Positions 28,470 to 47,312 of a DNA stretch of 64,000 nt are shown piece after piece (position 1 is the stretch's first letter; every line of letters begins with the position of its first letter). Location of the stretch: the NCBI RefSeq assembly GCF_900129745.1, contig NZ_FQWS01000002.1:806001-870000 (forward strand), in the 5' to 3' direction. This DNA is from Winogradskyella jejuensis. GTDB taxonomy: Bacteria > Bacteroidota > Bacteroidia > Flavobacteriales > Flavobacteriaceae. The notes beneath the pieces are model-generated. The model had not been told where the DNA came from and did not search any database. It saw only the letters and a program-made list of their open reading frames with translations. The translations under genes and the position numbers were made by a program.

Positions 28470-29279
28470 CTAGAAATTTTCAAAAACACCGAGACCAAAA
28501 AGGGCAAAATCGTATTTAACTGGGTCGGCAGCATCGAGCTTTCGTAGATTTTTGTCTAATTCTGCCAATGCTTTTCCGTCGTTTTGTTTGCGTTTTAGTA
28601 AACCTAATTTACGAGCCACATTGCCAGAGTGAACATCCAGAGGACAACCTAACTGAGCAGGAGAGAGGCTTTTCCAAATACCGAAATCTACACCAGTATT
28701 ATCATTTCGGACCATCCAACGTAAAAACATGTTAATACGTTTTGCTGCTGAATTTTTTAGTGGGTCACTTACATGCTTTTTACTACGCTCTAAATGCGCA
28801 ATCTCAAAAAAGTGTTTCTTGAGCTGATGAATTGAATTTTGAAGCGAATTAGCTTCTGCATATTTGGCAAAAATGGCTTCTAATCCATCGTGATGATTAT
28901 AAATATGCTTTAAGCTTGTTATAAACTGAATAAAATCAGAGCCATTAAACGTTCGATGCACAAAAGGCAAAAGCTTCTCTAAATCTTGCTCCTGATGTTG
29001 CATGATAAATTCGTAAGGCGAATTATCTAAAAACGTAACCATACGCTTAGCATTAGTGATAATACTTTTTCGATTTCCCCAAGCAATGGTCGCTGTTAGA
29101 AAACCAATAATCTCAATGTCTTCTTTTTTTGAGAATAAATGCGGAATTTGTATAGGGTCGCTCTCAATAAACTTTGGGTTATTGTATTCAGCAACTTTGC
29201 TGTCTAAGAATTCTTTGAGTTCTGCTTTTTTGAGTTTCAATTTGCGTAGATTTGAAAAAACGAAGTTAAGCCAAATCAT
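28470..29279 (-). CDS. TIGR02757/DUF2400 family protein
   Basis: 269 residues matching the conserved bacteroidetal and epsilonproteobacterial family TIGR02757 (DUF2400). Characteristic stretches are ATIAWGNRKSI, KRINMFLRWMVRND, VDFGIWKSLSPAQLGCPLDVHSGNVARKLGLL and DPVKYDFALFGLGVFE. The C-terminal half recalls the HhH-GPD DNA glycosylase fold, where the LDVHSGNVARKL segment would take the place of the VDTHIxR motif; a DNA-repair role is therefore possible but unproven. It is followed by no paired gene and lies just downstream of the LytTR regulator on the same strand. Confidence 0.85.
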   Translation of the reverse strand: MIWLNFVFSNLRKLKLKKAELKEFLDSKVAEYNNPKFIESDPIQIPHLFSKKEDIEIIGFLTATIAWGNRKSIITNAKRMVTFLDNSPYEFIMQHQEQDLEKLLPFVHRTFNGSDFIQFITSLKHIYNHHDGLEAIFAKYAEANSLQNSIHQLKKHFFEIAHLERSKKHVSDPLKNSAAKRINMFLRWMVRNDNTGVDFGIWKSLSPAQLGCPLDVHSGNVARKLGLLKRKQNDGKALAELDKNLRKLDAADPVKYDFALFGLGVFENF

Positions 29280-29282
29280 ATT

Positions 29283-29975
29283 CTACAGCAATAACTGTTT
29301 CACTTTTTCCTTGTATGATTTCCCTATAGGAATGCTATAATCTTCAATCTTAATTCTATTACCTTCTACAATACTTATATGTTGTTTAGATACCGCGTAG
29401 GACTTGTGTACTTGCATAAATTTGTCTGTAGGAAGTTTTTTAAGAATTTCAGAAATTTTCTCTCTTATTAAGTGCGTTTTTGTGGTGGTTACTAGCTTTA
29501 CGTAATTGCCAGCAGCTTCTATATAAAGAATGGTGTTACTATTAATTTGTATATGCTTCTTATCAGAATAAATAAAGATAGATTCAGTATTATCTTCAGT
29601 CTTTTTAGCTTCAGTTTTTGCTGAAATGTTTTCGATTTTTACTTTTTGAATTGCTGTTATAAAGCGTTCAAAACTAAAAGGTTTTAATAGGTAATCAACC
29701 ACATTAAGTGTATAGCCTTCCAGAGCATATTCTTGATAAGCTGTAGTGACAATAACCTTTGGAGGGGTTGTAAGCGTTTTTAAAAACTCAAAACCTTTTA
29801 GCTTAGGCATGTTAATGTCTAAGAAAATTAAATCTACACTTTGCTCTCGTAAATATTCTAAAGCTTCTAGAGCATCATAACAATGCTTTATTAACTGCAT
29901 GTTGGGCATCTTATCGCAGTAGCCTTTTATAATTTCGTGAGCTATACGCTCGTCATCAATAATAAGATATGTCAT
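29283..29975 (-). CDS. LytTR-type response regulator
   Basis: 230 residues. The receiver domain carries the acidic pocket IDDER and phospho-acceptor Asp53 in IFLDINMP. The LytTR DNA-binding domain (about 130-228) contains the LYIEAAGNYVKLVTTTKTHLIREKI segment and KFMQVHKSYAVS. Its start codon overlaps the stop of the histidine kinase gene by one base, so kinase and regulator are translated from one transcript. Targets cannot be deduced. Confidence 0.93.
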   Translation of the reverse strand: MTYLIIDDERIAHEIIKGYCDKMPNMQLIKHCYDALEALEYLREQSVDLIFLDINMPKLKGFEFLKTLTTPPKVIVTTAYQEYALEGYTLNVVDYLLKPFSFERFITAIQKVKIENISAKTEAKKTEDNTESIFIYSDKKHIQINSNTILYIEAAGNYVKLVTTTKTHLIREKISEILKKLPTDKFMQVHKSYAVSKQHISIVEGNRIKIEDYSIPIGKSYKEKVKQLLL

Positions 29976-30874
29976 TATAAATTTAAGTCTAGATGAGCAG
30001 TATGAATATCGTTTACTGATGTAAAAGTAAGATTATGTTGGTTAGGGTATGCTAGCTCTAATCTTCGTTTTAGGTTTTTAATTCCAATTCCTGGTTTTTT
30101 AGGAAGCTCATCTTTATCATAATTGTTTTTAACTACAAAAGAGATATGTTTGTATGTAGCATTTAAACTTATATGCACAAAGGCCTTTTGTCTTAAGTTT
30201 TCTACACCATGCTTAAAGGCGTTTTCTACTAAAATAATATAGAGTAGTGGCATTATATTGTAGTTCATATTCTTATCAAAATCCACATTGAATTCTATGT
30301 CTATAGCTTTGTGGTATCGCATGCGATGTAAATCTATATAATTCTGTAAATAGTCGACTTCTTCTTTTAACGTTACGGTTTTTCGTTCACCTTCATAAAT
30401 GCTGTAACGCATCAATTCTGATAACTTTAGAATTAGTGCTTTGGCTTTTTCAGAATCTACATCTACTAATCCGTAAAGGTTGTTCAGCATATTGAAAAAA
30501 AAATGCGGATTTACTTGGCTTTGAAGATGTAGTAATTCATTTTTAATTCTTTCATTTTTAAGCTTAAGAACAGATTTTAATTGCAGAATTATCCAAATAG
30601 CTCCAGCTAATAGAAGAATGCCATAATATACCAATACAATAGTGGCTAGTGCAGGATGAAAATTGCCTAGAAATAAGACCGATTCTTTCTGAAGTACAAT
30701 AATCTCATAGGCTGTTATCCCAAGGGGTACTAGTATAGTTGTAAGGATGATGATTTTTAGTAAAAGCCAATTATTCTTTTTTAAGATTGAAATCATACTG
30801 CAAAATAATAAGAATACTCTTGATGCTTTTAAGAAAGGTGACAAACGCTTCATAAAGAGTTTTAAAGCTTTCAA
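29975..30874 (-). CDS. LytS-type sensor histidine kinase
   Basis: 299 residues. Two membrane segments (about 38-58 and 75-97) are followed by a short coiled coil and the His_kinase domain with phospho-acceptor His in QVNPHFFFNMLNNLYG. The HATPase part has VENAFKHG and GIGIKNLKRRLELAYP. This is the YehU/LytS class that signals to LytTR regulators; the partner is encoded directly downstream. An internal ATG at 30796 (MISILKKNNW) could be the true start, which would remove a poorly conserved 26-residue leader; I cannot decide between them. Confidence 0.9.
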   Translation of the reverse strand: MKALKLFMKRLSPFLKASRVFLLFCSMISILKKNNWLLLKIIILTTILVPLGITAYEIIVLQKESVLFLGNFHPALATIVLVYYGILLLAGAIWIILQLKSVLKLKNERIKNELLHLQSQVNPHFFFNMLNNLYGLVDVDSEKAKALILKLSELMRYSIYEGERKTVTLKEEVDYLQNYIDLHRMRYHKAIDIEFNVDFDKNMNYNIMPLLYIILVENAFKHGVENLRQKAFVHISLNATYKHISFVVKNNYDKDELPKKPGIGIKNLKRRLELAYPNQHNLTFTSVNDIHTAHLDLNL

Positions 30875-31012
30875 TTATTGGGATGAACGTCAGTTAGGTA
30901 GCTATACAATGAAAAATAGGACATTCATCACATAAATTTCATACGGACAGACTTATGGATAATATTTGTGCCAATCAAAAAACGTATAGTAATCATCTAA
31001 AAACGTATTAAA

Positions 31013-32188
31013 ATGAAAAAAAGAGTCTTACGTTATTTAAAGCACATCTTAGGAACTATCATAATATTTATGGCAATCGGTGCTTCAATTTTAATATATG
31101 AAAATGGAAGTATTCATTACGGAGATAATCCTAAAAAAATGGATTGGGATAACGAAGGTCCGTATGTGTTTTATAAAAATGATAGTACCCTAAATATCAA
31201 TTACATTAAAGGGAGTAAAAAAGAAGGATTTTATGTAGATGAGAAAGAAGTTTCAACAAAGCAGTCCGCATTGGCAAGGAGTTTTTTTGCATTAGATTCT
31301 ACTAGTTTTAGTTTTAATCTTGATTCAGATTTCCAAATACCAGAATCGACATATACCGATAATCAAAAGATTATAGCAGTTTCTGATATTGAAAGTGGGT
31401 ATAGAACTTTCAGAGATTTTTTAATAAATAACAAGGTTATAGACCAAGATCTGAATTGGACATTCGGTAAAGGGCATTTGGTTTTAGTTGGTGATTTTGT
31501 TGATAGAGGTTTTTCTACAACGCAAGTGCTTTGGTTTATATACAAATTGGAGCAGGAGGCAAAAAAGCATAAAGGAAATGTCCATTTTATTATAGGAAAT
31601 CACGAACTAAAGAATATGTATGGAGACTATGGAGCTGCATCTCTGAAGTATACTTTTGTGACTTCAATTTTAGGAAAAACACAAGCTAATCTGTATGACA
31701 AAAACTCATTTTTAGGCAAATGGTTATCTAGTAAAAATGCTATAGAGTCTATTAATGGAAACCTCTTTGCGCATGGTGGTTTACATCCAGATATTTCAAA
31801 GATTGATATGACTCTAGATGAGATAAACAGTTTTCTAAGAGCAAATTATTACAACGCACCATATCCAAAAGCAAATAAAGCAAAAACTGAATTATTACTA
31901 TCCTCAAAAACTGGGGTTAGCTGGTATCGTGGTTATTTTAGAGAAGATGATTTATCTCAAAAGCAAGTAGATAGTAGTTTAGATAAGTTTGACGCAAAAT
32001 CAATTGTTGTTGGTCATACGTTACAAAACAAAGTTAAAAGAGTTTTTGAAGGAAAGGTTATAGGTATAGATGTACAACACCCTAAAGATTATCATAAAAA
32101 TTGGCCTAAGAAAACGTCAGAGGGATTGCTTATAGAAAACGAAAAATATTATAGAGTATTAAGTGACGGAAGTATAAGTGAGATATGA
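31013..32188 (+). CDS. Membrane-anchored metallophosphoesterase
   Basis: 391 residues with one N-terminal membrane anchor (about 12-29) and a calcineurin-like phosphoesterase domain. Motifs are SDIES (Asp125; the usual D-x-H has Glu127 in place of His, which I recall as normal for this bacteroidetal subgroup), GDFVDRG (160-166), GNHE (195-198), and later FAHGGLHP and VVGHT histidines. A dinuclear metal site is therefore expected, facing the periplasm. The substrate is unknown. Confidence 0.87.
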   Translation: MKKRVLRYLKHILGTIIIFMAIGASILIYENGSIHYGDNPKKMDWDNEGPYVFYKNDSTLNINYIKGSKKEGFYVDEKEVSTKQSALARSFFALDSTSFSFNLDSDFQIPESTYTDNQKIIAVSDIESGYRTFRDFLINNKVIDQDLNWTFGKGHLVLVGDFVDRGFSTTQVLWFIYKLEQEAKKHKGNVHFIIGNHELKNMYGDYGAASLKYTFVTSILGKTQANLYDKNSFLGKWLSSKNAIESINGNLFAHGGLHPDISKIDMTLDEINSFLRANYYNAPYPKANKAKTELLLSSKTGVSWYRGYFREDDLSQKQVDSSLDKFDAKSIVVGHTLQNKVKRVFEGKVIGIDVQHPKDYHKNWPKKTSEGLLIENEKYYRVLSDGSISEI

Positions 32189-32271
32189 AAAACGAAGTTA
32201 ACACCCATTTATTAATAAATGTAATTATCTACTCTTGAAGTTGTATAAATAAAAAGCTAACTTCGCTTACT

Positions 32272-32294
32272 TGTGCTGAACTTATTTCAGTATC
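32272..32294 (+). repeat. Degenerate copy of REP-like palindrome (family A)
   Basis: TGTGCTGAACTTATTTCAG resembles the 25698-25718 element (GCTGAA, 5-nt loop, TTCAG). It lies in the 211-bp gap after the phosphoesterase gene. The same gap holds an inverted repeat GATATAGTTC/GAACCATATC (32299-32308 and 32318-32327, one mismatch), which may be the left edge of the cassette-like region. Confidence 0.5.
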
Positions 32295-32399
32295 AGACGA
32301 TATAGTTCATAGTTAACGAACCATATCTTAACGTTGTAACAATTACCACAACAAAGTGACAAACTTATATATCAGTCATCTTATTAGAAAGAATGTAAA

Positions 32400-33485
32400 A
32401 TGATGTCCAAAAATATTTACAAAATAATACTTTTAGTTTTAGTGATATCATTTTCGGGATGTAAAAAAGAAAAGGTATACGAAAACCCAATTTCTGAAAA
32501 TATTACATTTAAAAACATTATTAATGATAACATAATACTGTCTGGAACACTATCAATACCTAGCAAAGATGGAACTTTTCCTGCAGTAGTTTTGATAAGT
32601 GGAAATGGAGAACATAATAGAAATGAAGAATTCGGAAATTTCAAACCCTTTTTAGATATTTCTAATTACTTGACAAAACAGGGAATTGCTGTCTTGCGAT
32701 ATGACAAAAGAGGAGTAGGAGAATCAACAGGTAATTACAATTCAGCCAATTCTTTTGATTTTGCAAATGATGTCAATTCTGCAATTGAATATTTGCTCAC
32801 AAGAGAGGAAATTAAAAGTAATGAAATTGGTTTAATTGGGCATAGTGAGGGCGGACTGATTGCACCAATCGTCGCTTCTCAATCTTCAAATGTAGCTTTT
32901 ATTGTTTCTTTAGCAGGTCCGAGCTTATCTGGAGACAAAATCTTATTATCGCAACAAAAAGCTATTGCTTTAGCAAAAGGAACAGATAAATCAGAAGTCA
33001 AAAAAAATCAAAAATTAAATCGAGCAGCTTTTGAGATAGTCAAACTTTACAAAGACGAGGATACCTTGAGGAAAAGAATGACTGAATACATTGAAGAAAT
33101 ATCCTTAAATGACCCTGAAAAGCCTGAAAATATGACTTATGATGAATATGTTAATGCTCAAGTAAAAGGTATTTTAAGACCTTGGATGGTAAATTTTTTA
33201 AGGTACAATCCTGAAAAATATATTGAGCAAGTTCGAGTTCCAGTTCTTGCCTTAAATGGAACGAAAGATTTGCAAATTTTATCTTCTGAAAACTTATCAG
33301 AATGGAAAAGAATTTTAGAGAGTTCAGGCAATAAAAATGTAACAACAAAAGAATTGCAAAATCTAAATCATTTATTCCAAACTTGTGAAACTGGTCTGCC
33401 AGATGAATATGAAAAACTTAACGAATCCTTTTCTGTCATCGCAATGAACGAAATAAGTAAATGGATTAAAAAACAAACAAAATAA
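32400..33485 (+). CDS. Alpha/beta hydrolase lipoprotein, first cassette-like gene
   Basis: 361 residues. A lipobox ending SFSGC (Cys21) predicts an envelope lipoprotein. The hydrolase domain has the oxyanion region ISGNGEHNRN, the DKRGVGES strand-turn, and the nucleophile elbow GHSEGG centred on Ser149; the late acid and histidine fall in LALNGTKDLQ and LNHLFQ. This is the class of bacterial acyl-ester hydrolases like YqiA/Est-type. The start at 32400 (MMSK) could equally be 32403. The stop codon abuts an attC-like hairpin, and the next gene is followed by the same 13-nt boundary sequence. Confidence 0.82.
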   Translation: MMSKNIYKIILLVLVISFSGCKKEKVYENPISENITFKNIINDNIILSGTLSIPSKDGTFPAVVLISGNGEHNRNEEFGNFKPFLDISNYLTKQGIAVLRYDKRGVGESTGNYNSANSFDFANDVNSAIEYLLTREEIKSNEIGLIGHSEGGLIAPIVASQSSNVAFIVSLAGPSLSGDKILLSQQKAIALAKGTDKSEVKKNQKLNRAAFEIVKLYKDEDTLRKRMTEYIEEISLNDPEKPENMTYDEYVNAQVKGILRPWMVNFLRYNPEKYIEQVRVPVLALNGTKDLQILSSENLSEWKRILESSGNKNVTTKELQNLNHLFQTCETGLPDEYEKLNESFSVIAMNEISKWIKKQTK

Positions 33486-33551
33486 CTGTTGCCAACAATG
33501 GCTCTCCGTGAGGCGTACCTCACTACGCCATACACTGTGGGCGTCGGCAAC
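33485..33551 (+). repeat. attC-like nested hairpin, first copy
   Basis: Begins with ACTGTTGCCAACA (33485-33497), overlapping the last base of the hydrolase stop codon. Nested arms are GTTGCC (33488-33493)/GGCAAC (33546-33551), ATGGC (33498-33502)/GCCAT (33527-33531) and GTGAGG (33508-33513)/CCTCAC (33518-33523). This is an extended imperfect hairpin with GTT at one end and AAC at the other, the shape of integron recombination sites. It is visibly more GC-rich than its surroundings. Confidence 0.55.
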
Positions 33552-33568
33552 AATATAAAAACCGAGAG

Positions 33569-34474
33569 ATGACAAGAAACATTCTACTTGTAATTTTAAT
33601 TTTCTGCATAACATCGTGCAAAAAAGAAAATAAAACAGTTAAAGAAACAGTACAGTCCGAGGAATTAAATCCAATAGAAGACCCAAATATATTTGTCGGC
33701 AAACACAAAGCAAAAGCTATGGTTTTGGGAGTTTTTCATTTCGACAATCCAAATTTGGACAGCTACAAACCAAAGTTTCCGTTTAATATTTTAGAAAGTA
33801 GAAGACAATCTGAATTAGACACGCTACTGAACAAAATAGCAGAATACAAACCGACTAAAATATTGCTTGAATGGCCAAGAATTAAAATGGATAGCATTAC
33901 CAATGAACGATATCAAAATTATCTGAATGGCTCTTTCAATCTTAATGATAAAAGTAACGAGATTTATCAAATTGGTTTTAAACTTGCCAAAAAATTAGAC
34001 CATAATCGAGTTTATTGCTCTGACGCGTCTGCCGATTGGTTCGGTGTTGAACTGGATTGGGACAATTATGACGAAGAAGTATATTTAAAATCAAAAGGAC
34101 AGTTTGAAAAATCCACTCGATATGATTATGAATCCTTTTATGAATTAGGCGATTCGATAAAAAGTGTTCAAACTTTAACAGAGCATCTGTTTTTTAGAAA
34201 CAGACCAAAAAACAGATTGAAAGACCATCAAGCATATCTTACAGAAGGTGTTTTAGAAGGTGCTGGCGATAATTATTTGGGTGCTGATGGAGTGGCGAGA
34301 TGGTACAGACGGAATTTAAGAATATTTTCTAACGCTTACGATTTAACCGATTTTGACAAGGAAGACCGACTTTTATTGATATATGGTTCTGGACATGTAT
34401 GGCAATTGAGACAATTTTTTACAGACTCGCCCGATTTTGATTATATTGAATCGAATGAGTATCTGGCGAAATAA
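33569..34474 (+). CDS. DUF5694 family lipoprotein, second cassette-like gene
   Basis: 301 residues with a lipoprotein signal (LIFCITSC, Cys17). The mature domain matches DUF5694: VLGVFHFDNP near the start, EWPRIKMDS, and a C-terminal YGSGHVWQLRQFF. The paired GxxHF and GSGH histidines recall the TraB/GumN (ChaN-like) superfamily, in which such residues bind metal or heme-like ligands; a hydrolase role is possible but not shown. It starts 18 nt after one attC-like hairpin and stops just before a second that opens with the same ACTGTTGCCAACA. Confidence 0.8.
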   Translation: MTRNILLVILIFCITSCKKENKTVKETVQSEELNPIEDPNIFVGKHKAKAMVLGVFHFDNPNLDSYKPKFPFNILESRRQSELDTLLNKIAEYKPTKILLEWPRIKMDSITNERYQNYLNGSFNLNDKSNEIYQIGFKLAKKLDHNRVYCSDASADWFGVELDWDNYDEEVYLKSKGQFEKSTRYDYESFYELGDSIKSVQTLTEHLFFRNRPKNRLKDHQAYLTEGVLEGAGDNYLGADGVARWYRRNLRIFSNAYDLTDFDKEDRLLLIYGSGHVWQLRQFFTDSPDFDYIESNEYLAK

Positions 34475-34476
34475 AT

Positions 34477-34618
34477 ACTGTTGCCAACACCTTGTATAAT
34501 TAATCGCTTGTTTCTCGACTACTCACAAAAATCCTCGCGGATTTTCTATTCTATTTTTATTTGCTAAATTCCGTGCTAAATCAAGCAACTAACCATACAC
34601 AAAGCCGATAAGCGTAAC
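34477..34618 (+). repeat. attC-like nested hairpin, second copy
   Basis: Opens with ACTGTTGCCAACA (34477-34489), identical to 33485-33497. CTTGTATAATTAATCGCTTG (34491-34510) pairs imperfectly with 34582-34604, and the core AAAATCC-TCGC-GGATTTT (34528-34545) is a perfect 7-bp hairpin. The outer end GCGTAAC (about 34612-34618) can face the initial GTTGCC region loosely. The fold is about 140 nt long, more than twice the first copy. No ORF of note is inside it. Confidence 0.52.
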
Positions 34619-34625
34619 CCAAAAA

Positions 34626-35006
34626 TCACTTCACCGCAATCATACTAATCTCCACATTTACAAACTTTGGTAAGTTAGCAACTTCTACAGTTTCTCGCGC
34701 TGGCGCTGTGGCTTCATCAAAATAACTACCATACACCTCATTAATTTGTGAGAAATTGATCATATCGCTAATAAATATTGAGGTTTTAATAACGTTTTCA
34801 AAGGTCATATCAGCTGCTTTTAAAACCGCTTTCATGTTTTCCATCACTTGTTTGGTTTCAGTCTTAATATCGTCTAAAACCAATTCCATAGTTTCTGGAT
34901 GCAAGGCAATTTGTCCAGATGTATAGAGTGTATTACCAGATAAAACAGCTTGGTTGTAAGGTCCTATTGGTGCAGGAGCATCAGTCGTGTTGATGATTTT
35001 TTTCAT
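34626..35006 (-). CDS. ridA: RidA family reactive-intermediate deaminase
   Basis: 126 residues from MKKIINTTDAPAPIGPYNQ. RidA proteins hydrolyse reactive enamine/imine products of PLP enzymes. The family signature PARETVEVANLPKFVNVEISMIAV at the C-terminus contains the substrate-carboxylate arginine. I use the ATG at 35006; the longer frame would begin with a TTG at 35030 that is part of the TATTTTTG promoter element and so cannot be the start. The length equals typical RidA. Confidence 0.93.
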   Translation of the reverse strand: MKKIINTTDAPAPIGPYNQAVLSGNTLYTSGQIALHPETMELVLDDIKTETKQVMENMKAVLKAADMTFENVIKTSIFISDMINFSQINEVYGSYFDEATAPARETVEVANLPKFVNVEISMIAVK

Positions 35007-35027
35007 TTGTGCAGAATTTTGATTATT

Positions 35028-35035
35028 CAAAAATA
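35028..35035 (-). promoter_or_regulatory. -7 promoter element of ridA
   Basis: Minus strand TATTTTTG, 21 nt before the ridA ATG; it decides the start of ridA. Confidence 0.58.
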
Positions 35036-47061: not shown

Positions 47062-47312
47062 AATTTAAGAATTTAGATTGTGCCTACTCATATTTAGCTT
47101 TTCGGCTTACGCTATTTGACTAAAGAAAACCAATTAGCGTGCCAATATTTTAAGTATCTTATTATCAAATAATTATGCATTTGTTTTATGTCTTAATTAG
47201 TGTACTTGAATTCTTTTAAGGTAACATTATAAGTTTTTAATCTTCTTATTTGTAAATGGAGTCACAACTTAGTAGGAGATTTTTGTAATTTTAGCTTTAC
47301 TAACTGTCAATC

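Follow-up and report, generated by a model that had tools for sequence, protein, structure and literature searches.

A probable pair of integron-like cassettes in Winogradskyella jejuensis and a candidate recombinase of Flavobacteriaceae cassette arrays

Two neighboring lipoprotein genes of Winogradskyella jejuensis raise the question of whether single genes in this genome are exchanged as cassettes, as in integrons, and by which enzyme. The genes lie in the window, a 64,000-nt stretch at C9:806001-870000 of a 3.03-Mb genome in 12 contigs, and Pfam assigns the first to the alpha/beta hydrolases and the second to DUF5694. Both are followed by the same 13-nt sequence, ACTGTTGCCAACA, with exact copies at 33485-33497 and 34477-34489, at or just 3′ of the stop codons, as the first-pass annotation of this DNA had stated. 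That annotation also proposed a bacteroidetal cassette system whose recombinase is encoded elsewhere. This proposal is now supported by complementary cassette ends, arrays in the same genome, a varying gene content, and a recombinase with an attI-like site. We regard it as highly probable that the window contains two cassettes of an integron-like Flavobacteriaceae system that is run by recombinases of the type of P0001, a protein encoded on the same contig. The features of the element are listed in Table 1.

Table 1. Features of the cassette element in the window
Feature	Position	Strand	Basis and remarks
Promoter-like sequence TTG...TAACTTCG	32235..32265	+	Overlaps left arm of platform; putative, from sequence and the same layout elsewhere in the genome
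Short hairpin (platform), putative insertion target of cassettes	32258..32333	+	Crossover after G32333; bottom strand forms a 12-bp stem; degenerate empty counterpart in G503
Cassette 1, alpha/beta-hydrolase lipoprotein gene 32400-33485	32334..33543	+	Boundaries read from sequence
Site 1, short attC-like	33485..33552	+	Core AAC 33494-33496; crossover after G33543; folding
Cassette 2, DUF5694 lipoprotein gene 33569-34474	33544..34607	+	Sequence; Pfam; match of site 1 tail and site 2 head
Site 2, full-length attC-like	34476..34619	+	Covariance-model score; comparison with dispersed-site tails; junction matched in G502 and G503
Right chromosomal flank of insertion	34608..34625	+	Adjoins L-PSP gene 34626-35030 (-); shared with the empty place of G503

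Cassette ends and structured sites

The whole genome contains three exact copies of ACTGTTGCCAACA, and near-copies were found on small contigs. On contig C6 (13.4 kb), the genes lie on one strand, mostly one per unit, with sites of mostly about 145 nt between them that open with ...AAC and close with GTT.... Here, each site's bases 3′ of GTT are reverse-complementary to the bases 5′ of AAC in the next site. The 13-mer consists of the 3′ end of a cassette and the AAC core. As the first half comes from the individual cassette, the 13-mer varies and counting the exact motif is a poor guide, and we used a covariance model instead (R1, built from 17 sites of one genome, window site 2 included). At E ≤ 0.1, R1 detected 40 sites in the genome, 28 of them on contigs C6, C7, C8, C10, and C11 and 12 dispersed in larger contigs, including window site 2. 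The motif might have been confined to one place, as was allowed at first, but sites of the same family do occur between open reading frames (ORFs) elsewhere in the genome.

The cassette rule was examined with 297 of the 307 R1 matches, at 36 loci of this genome and 17 relatives (ten were left out, seven unprinted and three cut at an end). Among 250 adjacent pairs less than 2.5 kb apart, 204 had at least six of seven complementary positions between the tail of one site and the head of the next, with a mean of 6.0. The corresponding value was 2.95% for random pairs and 14 of 297 for the two ends within one site. Cassette ends are therefore complementary, and GTT is the joining point, as in integrons. 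GTT was present in 288 of the 297 sites and AAC, at the exact offset, in 260. A same-strand ORF of at least 60 codons ended no more than 150 nt before or 20 nt inside the site at 233 of 297 sites, compared with 198 of 891 random positions. The median distance from the ORF stop to the site was 3 nt (n = 233 sites), and the median cassette length was 703 nt (n = 251).

The paired arms of the sites carry compensatory changes. In the best 150 matches, 96.6% of the cells were paired (82.9% when shuffled), the covariation score was 0.283 (0.062), and double changes numbered 256 (87); the alignment was fitted to the model, which favors a pairing result. The folding check of the two window hairpins gave a divided answer. 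Site 1 folded better than its shuffles (z -2.93), whereas site 2 did not by simple energy (z -0.42), though it scored 105.5 bits with R1, in whose training set it is included. The bottom strands of four sites and of the platform folded 1 to 4 kcal/mol better than the top strands. Some sites form a sub-class with a greater length, about 200-225 nt rather than 145, as seen at L017:5178-5402 and also at L138, L139, L149, and L151.

In the window, the tail of site 1 matches the head of site 2 in seven of seven bases after the core triplet. Several dispersed elements of the genome have a common layout: TTG...TAACTTCG, a short hairpin with the head AACTTCGYTTAAC, G^TT, a cassette, a long site, and a tail. 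Their tails, e.g. GTTAAACGA or GATAAGCG, complement the head of the short hairpin. Owing to this shared layout, we read these elements as cassettes inserted into a short palindromic platform, and the window fits this arrangement. The unusual 3′ end of site 2 (GATAAGCG) can be interpreted as the chromosomal part of a junction formed on insertion, and its last bases (G^ATAAGCGTAACC) are read in the same way. The promoter-like label in Table 1 follows what we take to be the promoter consensus. Dispersed short hairpins overlapping TTG...TAACTTCG lie at window 32235-32333 and at L020, L064, L065, L066, L068, L070, and L072, and they possibly form a family of promoter-bearing insertion platforms.

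The recombinase P0001 and its attI-like site

With the IntI model, nothing in the window matched at E ≤ 0.001, in agreement with the early remark that no integrase is nearby. The best IntI-profile match in the genome is P0001, a 380-aa tyrosine recombinase at C9:1226441-1227580, about 386 kb from the window element and close to the contig end at 1227797. The sequence 3′ of P0001 reads ...CCATATAAACTA^GTTGTACGC, followed by the start of an open frame at which the contig ends; an attI beside P0001 in this genome is likely. We took the DNA 3′ of P0001-type genes from 17 relatives (20 stretches). In 14 of the 17, an attI-like GTT with 9-10 of 10 bases complementary to the head of the first site lies 26-135 nt after the recombinase stop, and these attI-like sequences loosely share TATAAACAA^GTTG. 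At 17 loci, all 214 counted sites were on the recombinase strand. A candidate for the recombinase that was proposed to be encoded elsewhere thus lies outside the window on the same contig, together with an attI-like site.

An alignment of 29 recombinases served to find a second sample of 80 named loci, which overlaps the first, L232 being identical to L078. At 23 of these loci, R1 sites were present at E ≤ 0.01 (72 sites), and in 21 of the 23 all sites lay downstream on the same strand. The exceptions are L279, which also has two sites upstream, and L294, which has two upstream on the other strand (divergent). Among the named hosts in which sites are present are Algibacter onchidii, Winogradskyella ursingii, Seonamhaeicola aphaedonensis, Arcticiflavibacter luteus, Zunongwangia mangrovi, and Algoriphagus ornithinivorans.

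P0001 differs from the canonical integron integrases. In this genome, no protein exceeded the curated IntI cut-off (TIGR02249, 265 bits), and P0001 scored 200.3 bits in two stretches against the IntI model. Residues 285-307 of P0001 (23) align to residues 182-247 (66) of the solved IntI structure 2a3v, and no IntI-specific insertion of that size is present there in the 29 aligned sequences, P0001 included. According to PMC8138268, the insertion is incompletely conserved in an integron-like subgroup, yet essential for integron function, so P0001-type enzymes may fall near that subgroup. In a quick tree of 134 recombinase cores, the 15 canonical IntI of the phylum formed one clade (support 100), 40 site-associated rows fell on one side of another branch (support 80), and the two Xer-like proteins of this genome stood apart; 77 rows are unlabeled, many of them on the same side as the site-associated rows. 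The site-associated labels were given by hand, 35 to rows with sites on the same stretch, one to the recombinase of this genome (attI only, as the contig ends), and four to L074, L075, L099, and L101, which are unchecked; L278 and L297 have sites and were left unlabeled. The closest solved structure to P0001 by sequence is XerA.

Residues 1-77 of P0001 form an extra N-terminal domain that is common to the alignment of 29, and some P0001-type proteins (about 280 aa) are too short for it. Of ten N-terminal domains scanned with Pfam, two gave matches at E ≤ 10, each of them weak and to an unrelated family; the domain of P0001 had no Pfam match, and no PDB sequence match at E ≤ 10. An AlphaFold model of the domain alone had a predicted local distance difference test (pLDDT) score of 89. 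Foldseek gave no match at E ≤ 0.001. On re-alignment, the best of these weak likenesses were YciH (Z 7.7), eIF1-like proteins (about 7), and the N-terminal half of XPB (6.5), values in the range of common arrangements. A HARP-like domain was also considered; this guess remained unproven. At G242:C44, G234:C33, G249:C4, and G365:C17 (another family), the P0001-type gene is divergent from the R1 sites, as in the classical layout. The open frames there are 280-335 aa long, seemingly without the N-terminal domain, and G234 and G249 also carry canonical IntI.

P0001 possibly belongs to a genomic island. On C9, a tRNA-Met lies 3 kb upstream of P0001, and 44 bp of its end recur after the last site of the array contig C7. 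C9 and C7 are unjoined in the assembly, and the repeat has at least these two copies. A 441-aa integrase starts 55 nt after tRNA-Met and is followed by the cassette recombinase (L030:11426-15584; L018:1758-1801). The array may lie in a tRNA-Met island that could carry the whole platform between strains.

Gene content, distribution, and rival explanations

We compared this place among the same-genus relatives. LptD was found in 22 of them, and stretches from 20 of these 22, about 10 kb each and one of 3.5 kb, were compared. DUF2400 and L-PSP genes are both beside LptD in 18 of the 20. In these 18 relatives, the gap between DUF2400 and L-PSP (window 28470-35030) is a variable spot of 20 to 5829 nt. 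The hydrolase, DUF5694, and a metallophosphatase were absent from this place in all 20 relatives (E ≤ 1e-10, search limited to these stretches). G503, the closest relative by LptD, has a degenerate platform without a cassette at the same place (...CTTAACG^ATGAGCGTAACC...), and its right flank is identical to that of the element in 148 of 167 nt. In G502 the place is occupied by another gene, together with a long site and the junction G^TTAAGCGTAAC. Constant presence of both genes at this site in all relatives was named in the first-pass annotation as pointing away from mobile cassettes; the genes are not fixed here, and gene content at this place differs between species.

Cassettes also reassort between genomes. 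Comparison of 251 cassettes gave 59 similar pairs, 15 of them between genomes (70-96% identity), and none of these 15 had a shared neighboring cassette. Identical or near-identical cassettes are repeated within one array at L150 (G109), L151 (G157), L138 (G014), and L137 (G113), a sign of recent duplication or re-insertion. A DUF5694 match is present in 34 of 199 Flavobacteriaceae genomes, this one included, and five of the 29 DUF5694 loci examined in other genomes carry an R1 site at E < 1e-5. The closest homologue (57%, in G016) is without an R1 site, so the gene is not always cassette-borne.

Sites and recombinase are widespread. At E ≤ 1e-5, R1 sites were found in 171 of the 199 family genomes, with at most 15 candidates scored per genome, and in 62 of 296 genomes of a phylum sample; named members identify the family as Flavobacteriaceae. 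P0001-type genes were present in 122 of 199 family genomes (1e-50) and 93 of 296 phylum-sample genomes (1e-45), and canonical IntI exceeded its cut-off in 84 of the 296. In the phylum sample, 41 genomes had sites and a P0001-type gene, 21 sites only, 52 the recombinase only, and 182 neither (odds ratio 6.8, p 2.6e-10). The counts for canonical IntI were 18 with both, 44 with sites only, 66 with IntI only, and 168 with neither (odds ratio 1.04, p 0.88). The presence of sites tracks the P0001-type recombinase, not canonical IntI.

Several observations weigh against assigning the window to a P0001-run cassette system. The genomes are related, so the co-occurrence p-values are too small, though the contrast holds. 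No P0001-type match at E ≤ 1e-45 was found in 21 of the 62 site-bearing phylum genomes, and 52 of the 93 with the recombinase had no site. Likewise, 57 of the 80 named loci had no R1 site within the flanks covered, R1 having been trained on one genome. The attI-like sequence is weaker in G068 (8/10, with a one-base offset) and G150 (7/10), and among the 17 relatives G101 had no attI near its recombinase. In the window itself, site 1 was missed by R1 at E ≤ 1, and the 5′ and 3′ ends of cassette 1 match imperfectly, with one small change. Sequence to the left of the platform is not shared between the window and G503, and a joint arrival of platform and cassettes is therefore conceivable. Finally, the genome encodes two Xer-like proteins that could act on the sites.

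The sites might instead be ordinary attC sites of a canonical integron, a cluster of attC sites lacking integron integrases (CALIN) whose cassettes were moved by an IntI since lost or encoded elsewhere. The layout and the end complementarity are as in integron cassettes, and IntI does occur in the phylum at the frequency given above. However, no IntI over the cut-off was found in this genome or in the 30 family members counted in the phylum sample, sites occur independently of it, and arrays begin beside P0001-type genes. The 7-base cores also disagree with GTTRRRY/RYYYAAC, which we take to be the attC core consensus: of 297 sites only 27 have GTTRRRY and 24 RYYYAAC, with both in 3. We consider a canonical integron improbable.

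Marginally less probable again is that host XerC/XerD move the cassettes and P0001 is incidental. The two Xer-like proteins would provide the enzymes, and PMC4792948 describes integration of the folded CTXphi phage site by XerCD in Vibrio cholerae. The attI-like sites directly 3′ of P0001-type genes in 14 of 17 relatives weigh against this explanation. In addition, Xer recombinases are near universal, whereas the sites track P0001-type genes. Fixed palindromic repeats with no role in mobility (terminators, repetitive extragenic palindrome-like elements, or regulatory RNA hairpins) would also fold and lie close behind stop codons, but this explanation is very improbable, as it is largely refuted by complementarity between neighboring sites rather than within one and further opposed by the gene differences between species at this place, the reassortment of cassettes between genomes, and the lack of any Rfam family match in four array loci.

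Proposed mechanism and relation to known systems

Judged from its sequences, the P0001-associated system very likely works like an integron. A cassette would usually comprise one gene and a structured site, mostly of about 145 nt, with one of about 65 nt here as well. P0001 is presumably the enzyme that moves cassettes; recombinases of its type would recognize the sites, probably as folded single strands, like IntI with attC. Most likely, P0001 would bind attI as double-stranded DNA and a site as its folded strand, and exchange one strand at the AAC/GTT triplet. The cut would adjoin G^TT (AAC on the other strand), and cassettes would be excised as circles that go mainly into attI just downstream of the recombinase gene. 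Sometimes they may be inserted into dispersed short hairpin platforms with a promoter-like sequence, here beside the L-PSP gene. The cassettes would lack promoters of their own and be expressed from the platform. The system is probably active at present. This scheme follows the IntI model, in which, according to PMC4792948, the features kept by attC are limited to the AAC crossover triplet and a palindromic structure.

The integron logic proposed in the first-pass annotation holds for the cassettes; the strict name does not fit. Complementary cassette ends, the GTT/AAC crossover, attI at the array head, a tyrosine recombinase, and large arrays are shared with IntI/attI/attC, and the sites resemble attC in their structure, in which R-like and L-like arms pair and asymmetric spacers stay unpaired. 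In contrast, P0001 is without the IntI-specific insertion, below the IntI cut-off, and outside the canonical IntI clade, and most sites deviate from the attC core consensus; the system is therefore not a canonical integron. The integrase gene of an integron is usually divergent from the array, whereas at the Flavobacteriaceae loci examined the recombinase gene points along the cassettes, with L294 as the sole exception. The window element may be likened to a CALIN, being a two-cassette cluster with sites 1 kb apart, no adjoining recombinase, and no IntI-model match in the window, but the sequence type of its sites is not the canonical one and it lies inside a short hairpin platform. P0001 resembles XerA and XerC/D by the missing insertion and differs from them by its extra N-terminal domain and its position at the head of cassette arrays.

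Cassette insertions of the attG type, outside attI/attC, are attributed to Loot et al. 2024 and described in PMC12444791. The dispersed single insertions at a G-A/T-T triplet are similar, the right junction being G^AT in the window and G^TT in G502, but here short hairpins that carry a promoter-like sequence and look like short sites themselves seem to recur as targets, in place of widely scattered positions. The attG consensus is reportedly GWT.

We lean toward regarding these arrays as a second integron-like platform class in Bacteroidota. Its recombinase would be Xer-like without the IntI insertion; many members would carry an additional N-terminal domain, which may have taken on the recognition of folded sites. 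The class would be near-universal in Flavobacteriaceae by its sites, occur alongside canonical IntI in certain genomes from other families, and also feed the dispersed promoter-bearing hairpins. If most Flavobacteriaceae do have arrays of another sequence type, an important path by which these bacteria exchange genes has gone unnoticed, and some cassette systems can do without the IntI insertion, which is regarded as essential for folded sites. In the literature consulted, Bacteroidetes appeared earlier with only cassette-less integrases, and with one complete integron, in Salinibacter ruber (IntegronFinder 2.0, PMC9024848), one fish-hatchery Tenacibaculum is reported to be without an integron by that program (PMC10013915), and reviews count Bacteroidota among the integron-bearing phyla (PMC8618304, PMC9668308). 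Among the open-access matches listed, no title describes such Flavobacteriaceae arrays, and an earlier description is possible.

The only Rfam match in the window is a DUF805b RNA (RF02914, 40.2 bits) at 47081-47115 (-), upstream of a gene; its sequence looks unrelated to the cassette sites.

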